Source: Tsukamurella asaccharolytica (lineage in GTDB: Bacteria > Actinomycetota > Actinomycetes > Mycobacteriales > Mycobacteriaceae). Taken from it: DNA of 64,000 nt. The translations under genes and the position numbers were made by a program. The notes under the pieces were generated by a model, which was not told where the DNA came from, did no database searches, and saw only the letters and a list, made by a program, of their open reading frames with translations. The stretch lies in contig NZ_VIGW01000005.1 in NCBI RefSeq assembly GCF_007858435.1, positions 124,001-188,000 on the forward strand, given 5' to 3'. Every line of letters begins with the position of its first letter. Position 1 is the stretch's first letter. This document shows, piece after piece, positions 39,290 to 39,646 of the stretch.

Positions 39290-39646
39290 GCCGTCCCCCG
39301 ATCGACCTGTTGAGTGCGCGCCAGACTACCGCTGCGGCGCCCCCATCCATGCTCGGTTTCGGGAGTCCGAAGCGAGGAGGGAACGGAACGGGCGCTATGA
39401 CATCGTGACCGCCAGTGACAGATCCGATACGAGTGGAGTGGGCCAGACGCCGCGCCGGGCACGAGTCTCGCTCGGAGGCGACGGGCTCACGCAGTCCTCA
39501 GGCGTCCGGTTTGTCACTGGCGGTCACGATGTCATAGCAGCCGATCGCAGTGGGCGCGTCCGCCCGCCCGCCGAAGTCGGGGCCCGGCACCGTCGGATCG
39601 AATACCGGGGAGACCCGCAGGGCGGCGATCGATAGACTCGTCCCCC
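39290..39646. other. 357-bp gene-free region
   Basis: The gap between the TetR-like gene and trpS holds no open frame I would call. It contains the 27-bp inverted repeats (39394-39420 and 39512-39538) and, at its right end, the leaderless trpS promoter (-10 TAGACT, 39633-39638). Confidence 0.7.
39394..39538. repeat. 145-bp element bounded by 27-bp perfect inverted repeats
   Basis: Positions 39394-39420 and 39512-39538 are exact reverse complements over 27 bp, with 91 bp between. Each arm itself holds spaced TGTCA/GGTCAC copies. Outside the arms the match stops at once, and no target-site duplication is visible. It looks like a MITE, a paired regulator-binding site or a structured RNA. Confidence 0.85.

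Follow-up and report, generated by a model that had tools for sequence, protein, structure and literature searches.

The DNA analyzed here (the window) is a stretch of 64,000 nucleotides from the genome of Tsukamurella asaccharolytica (G000). A TetR-like gene (38486–39289, minus strand) and a gene which we take to be trpS face away from each other across a gap of 357 bp between their starts (39289 and 39647). The trpS product has a Pfam match to the tRNA synthetases of the W/Y type; the gene name is otherwise presumptive. An inverted repeat occupies the middle of the gap, whose features are as follows.

39395..39537, no strand: entire palindromic repeat (143 bp), beginning with CTA and ending with TAG (by comparison of 10 two-armed copies)
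39394..39420, plus strand: left arm, perfect over 27 bp, its outermost base probably flank (from the sequence)
39421..39430, plus strand: left arm, inner imperfect part (31/36 arm positions match)
39431..39501, no strand: spacer, 71 bp, not meaningfully homologous to those of two further long copies
39502..39511, minus strand: right arm, inner imperfect part (31/36 arm positions match)
39512..39538, minus strand: right arm, perfect over 27 bp, its outermost base probably flank (from the sequence)
39600..39646, plus strand: conserved block upstream of trpS (GAATACCGGGGAGAC...GATAGACTCG), a neighbor outside the repeat, with GATAGACTCG invariant in 10/10 species read

The two 27-bp arms (39394–39420 and 39512–39538) are exact reverse complements, 91 bp apart, as described in the sequence-only reading of this DNA. 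The same reading held that a match of this length is beyond chance, and this was borne out: the longest inverted arms in 30 first-order Markov sequences peaked at 12–17 bp, and the longest other perfect inverted arm in the window is 14 bp (spacing up to 600 bp). A chance or assembly artifact is ruled out, because a congener has the pair at the same place and none of the random sequences exceeded 17 bp. The three TGTCA-like steps noted in each arm are present as well (TGTCAC, GGTCAC, and TGTCAT in the right arm), and they are part of an arm consensus of about 36 bp (CTATGAMATCGTGACCGCCAGTGACAAACCGGACAT) of a Tsukamurella repeat, the arm-end sequence of which is CTATGAMATCGTGACC. Inward of the 27 bp, the pairing becomes imperfect, with 31 of 36 arm positions in agreement. 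Comparison within the family places the limits of the unit at CTA and TAG (39395–39537); the outermost G/C pair (39394/39538) varies among the other copies. The 145 nt between the outer arm ends fold very stably both as RNA (z = −10.1) and as single-stranded DNA (z = −8.2), and none of 200 shuffled sequences was equally stable in either case. An intrinsic terminator, that is, a short stem-loop followed by a T run, was not found between 39250 and 39700 in a scan with loops of 3–8 only.

The search for further copies gave a divided answer. No second copy exists in the genome of origin, where a 23-mer of the arm matched these two arms only (up to 3 mismatches), whereas related arms were found in congeners, at low copy numbers. 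A 26-mer at up to 3 mismatches had 19 matches in 7 of 16 Tsukamurella genomes, and a 16-mer at up to 1 mismatch had 25 matches in the same seven; the reversed control of the former and the control of the latter gave none. In the other 9 of the 16 genomes, neither search found a copy. Among 251 genomes drawn from the family, eight were matched: the seven congeners and one of the 235 others (G256), with a single weak match (3 mismatches). Among the genomes searched, the repeat is restricted to Tsukamurella. Plasmids and phages were rejected as sources; one plasmid and two phage records gave only 22–23-nt matches (E = 0.2–0.6), and an exact 25-mer was found in no viral contig.

Thirteen loci, A to L and N, make up the census, with 20 copies in total: one copy each in G000, G004, and G015, two each in G002 and G011, five in G001, and eight in G003. 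Both arms are kept in 12 of the 20 (37–240 bp, too short for coding a transposase), and one clear arm is present in the remaining eight. Seven copies are compact (64–78 bp); their two ends are conserved, and their spacer varies. A covariance model (R1), for which six compact copies were used, brought in one further, variant pair with 28-bp perfect arms (copy N of G001). Neither the copies in G000, G011, and G015 nor two long ones (A in G003 and C in G001) were detected by the model. Its matches in G013, G005, G003:C62, and G009 (E = 0.0007, 0.004, 0.06, and 0.06, respectively) were dropped because they lack the CTATGA end and look like chance hairpins; through these matches alone, G013, G005, and G009 account for three of the seven genomes in the R1 tally. 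An arm-like site of G011 (L059, 8/26 mismatches) and the G256 match (3 mismatches) were also dropped, and the count does not include the decayed relic that G001 carries before trpS.

The inverted pairs have sharply defined termini in common, and most copies have the ends CTATGA...TCATAG. CTA...TAG is found at both ends in 7 of the 10 two-armed copies compared, the exceptions including B of G001, the right end of which is decayed, and D of G001, which has CTG on the left; G of G003, a 37-bp short form, has CTA...TAG. The variant copy N ends in CTG...CAG, and TA at the ends is thus not universal. The two arms of a copy resemble each other more than they resemble arms at other loci. When one copy from each of seven loci was used, 4 of 5040 permutations were as good, and with 11 copies, none of 20,000 was. 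This likeness suits variants whose two ends moved together, and arm-to-arm conversion or selection acting on the stem could produce it too. The spacers have no meaningful homology among the three long copies, which share no homologous interior: the best match of the window spacer with copy C of G001 is 10 bp (E = 0.015), and there was no match with copy N at E up to 1.

The copies are dispersed beside genes of differing kind and in mixed orientation. Neither a shared gene theme nor a shared orientation was seen around them. An ORF screen by codon-position GC, applied to the copies at every locus other than A (18 of the 20) and to the dropped G011 site, places them between genes; long frames overlap 3 of the 19 screened entries (B of G002, F of G015, and H of G003), and at locus L a frame ends a few bases inside the arm. 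Six of the 13 loci (A to F) are common to two or three species, as judged by flanking genes aligned on at least one side, and recent movement is therefore not visible. Between species, the flanking DNA is alignable at B and D and, for E, throughout the left side; at A and C, the intergenic flanks have partly diverged. At locus E, a hairpin-like stretch directly follows the single arm in G002 and G003 (L055 and L069). Between the same two genes at locus G, extra DNA is found in G006 (L083), G011 (L088), and G005 (L084), where the anchors are 696, 697, and 275 bp apart, respectively, against 35–156 bp in the 13 other genomes.

Our preferred reading, to which we give a probability of about 60%, is that the window repeat is an old copy of a genus-restricted, nonautonomous, palindromic mobile repeat of the MITE-like kind. 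Among the three explanations offered by the sequence-only reading, a MITE or the ends of a lost insertion sequence fits best. Related arms recur in 7 of the 16 congeners, at 13 loci in all, whereas the missing second copy in the genome of origin and the low numbers (1–8 per genome) do not go with this explanation. We propose that a transposase acting in trans would recognize the 26–36-bp ends and place the unit between genes. After insertion, the copies would have been inherited vertically, would have diverged, and would have been lost in many species; the window copy is now probably immobile, just upstream of the trpS promoter region. Mobility is what we infer from the dispersal, because the ends of the candidate parent element differ, copy N ends in CTG...CAG, and neither partner arms nor an empty site was found; the involvement of a transposase and the absence of a function are likewise deduced. 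A function of the repeat is unlikely.

The CTA...TAG termini would fit an IS630-type insertion into TA. TA targets and their duplication are described in PMC2170065, and a title in its reference list names a CTAG preference of an IS630-associated transposon. CTAG is rare in the window, with 13 occurrences where base composition predicts about 164. DDE_3 genes were found in 2 of the 16 genomes (G004 and G007). The IS630 sites of G004 read C-TA...TA-G in six of seven copies and T-TA...TA-G in the seventh. This element was rejected as the parent since its ends (GTGGCGCG) are unlike the repeat arms. No arm-like 16-mer with fewer than 4 mismatches was present within the nine loci fetched in the DDE_3 search. 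The seven copies of the G004 element (L209, L210, and L212–L216) are 99.9–100% identical to the first one, which suggests that it has been active recently.

The earlier remark that no target duplication is visible stands; a TA duplication is possible and unproven. A clean empty site was not found at any of six loci (A, B, C, G, H, and K), where the flanking genes were found in relatives and the DNA between them aligns too poorly for a duplication to be read. Near the single-arm sites, no second arm with fewer than 8/26 mismatches was found in nine 12-kb stretches. Three matches of 8 or 9 mismatches there (two in L267 and one in L268) were taken as chance.

Comparable small repeats are known from other bacteria. 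The Correia (NEMIS) elements of Neisseria are about 107 and 155 bp long, with 24-bp inverted ends and a terminal TA (PMC2229807). For these elements, target duplications are listed, filled and empty sites are aligned, and the two sizes share sequence (PMC2229807), whereas the Tsukamurella repeat has unrelated spacers and no empty site was found for it. RUP of Streptococcus pneumoniae is also noncoding, with inverted ends at TA targets, and is presumed to be mobilized by an IS630-type element, proposed to be IS630-Spn1 (PMC2229807). It shares its ends with the resident IS630 and has 108 copies (PMC2229807); the Tsukamurella copies are few, and the ends of the G004 IS630 differ. The Tsukamurella repeat is a new family of a known kind of small palindromic repeats, real but modest. 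In the open-licence literature, nothing joined Tsukamurella with "miniature inverted-repeat," and a search for Tsukamurella with "insertion sequence" gave no such family among the titles listed. A small palindromic repeat family is thereby added for this genus, which is GC-rich, and its copies can serve as markers by which to trace how small repeats are gained and lost there. An attractive regulatory explanation for trpS and the TetR-like gene is also removed.

The same data can be read as a hairpin or protein-binding site that the host maintains at certain intergenic positions for the control of the chromosome or of transcription. We consider this unlikely. The sharing of 6 of 13 loci between species, with flanks partly diverged at A and C, would agree with it, as would the very stable fold and the close agreement between G000 and G003, where the left arms are identical and the right arms differ at 1 of 36 positions. 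However, such a site was not found in 9 of the 16 congeners by the 26-mer and 16-mer searches, and the copies have no common gene theme or orientation. Since B, D, and the left of E have flanks that are likewise alignable between species, no special constraint on the arms is needed at these places. Fully compensatory changes between orthologous copies numbered 4 against about 1.9 expected (four locus pairs); because this is only slightly above expectation, selection on the stem is not claimed.

Locus C argues against the unit having simply been inserted as a whole. In G001, the arms at this locus enclose a second palindrome (TTCCCGCGGGAGGTTTTCAC...), which is present without arms at the same locus in G004, G005, and G011; in G003, a compact copy lies in that gap, without the second palindrome. 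These observations would be explained if the mobile unit were not the whole palindrome: single 36-bp arms may have come to face each other around older DNA, or a stem-loop may have been replaced, as IS1272 does. IS1272, a member of the IS1182 family, resembles the Tsukamurella repeat in that palindromes are involved and no target duplication is made; it replaces inverted-repeat targets and carries a transposase (PMC5678879). We regard this explanation as quite unlikely, since it draws on one locus, arm loss in the three other species would explain locus C equally, and the arms are more alike within a copy than between loci. As an observation on locus C itself, a second palindromic repeat (TTCCCGCGGGAGGTTTTCACTCATCATCGGGTTGCAACCCGATGAT...) occurs there in G001, G004, G005, and G011 (L113, L114, L121, and L033).

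REPINs are doublets of two short inverted ends that are moved as single-stranded DNA by a RAYT transposase. They likewise have two conserved inverted ends, a variable spacer, and a hairpin (PMC3116915), and this layout is matched by the seven compact copies. When single arms were folded, however, four of five had no hairpin beyond chance (L070 reached z = −2.25), so that the repeat departs from the REPIN definition as to the hairpin of each end. Copy number differs as well: there are at most eight per genome here, whereas REPs usually number more than 100 per genome (PMC2817692). A REPIN-type origin of the Tsukamurella repeat is improbable.

The proposal that the arms serve as a pair of operators, with DNA looping, for the divergent TetR-like gene does not agree with the distribution and is very improbable. 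The gene adjoins the repeat in G000 and G003, but it lies near the element at only 1 of the 13 loci. Across the loci covered by tblastn with the protein (mostly 1.5 kb on each side of a copy), only locus A of these two genomes was matched; the match to the G003 copy is 73% over residues 1–219, where it stops. The protein itself matched nothing in Pfam (E up to 10), and in NCBIfam it gave a single weak match covering residues 32–82 (E = 0.011). Among 10 species read, the gene stands between exoA and trpS only in G000 and G003; exoA, like metX below, is a name presumed from the protein sequence. In the other eight, the distance from a motif at the exoA end to the trpS start is 83–218 bp, too short to accommodate the TetR-like gene. 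The distance from the motif to trpS is 1151 bp in G000 and 1268 bp in G003, both of which have the gene and the element. At the trpS locus of G001, a decayed arm pair remains (8 and 9/26 mismatches), as good as which none of 1000 shuffled sequences was; no such decayed arms were found in six other species tested. No TetR-like gene lies beside this relic, and the element is thus not tied to that gene. A 12-bp direct repeat (CCCCATCCATGC) occurs at 39280–39291 and 39341–39352, and each copy holds the start codon of a listed minus-strand ORF.

Although a very stable fold stands upstream of trpS, a structured RNA leader of this gene, the third explanation in the sequence-only reading, is hardly tenable. 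In 10 of 10 species, a promoter-like block that contains GATAGACTCG and ends six bases before the start codon is present on the downstream side of the element; Rfam has no match there. Eight of these species have no intact copy of the repeat at this place. The block is probably the promoter of a nearly leaderless trpS. Rfam gave no match in eight copy-bearing loci and none in the window beyond a SAM-IV riboswitch. The riboswitch (35428–35545, minus strand, 99.6 bits) is located at the upstream end of an ORF (34274–35485, minus strand) that looks like the homoserine acetyltransferase gene metX.
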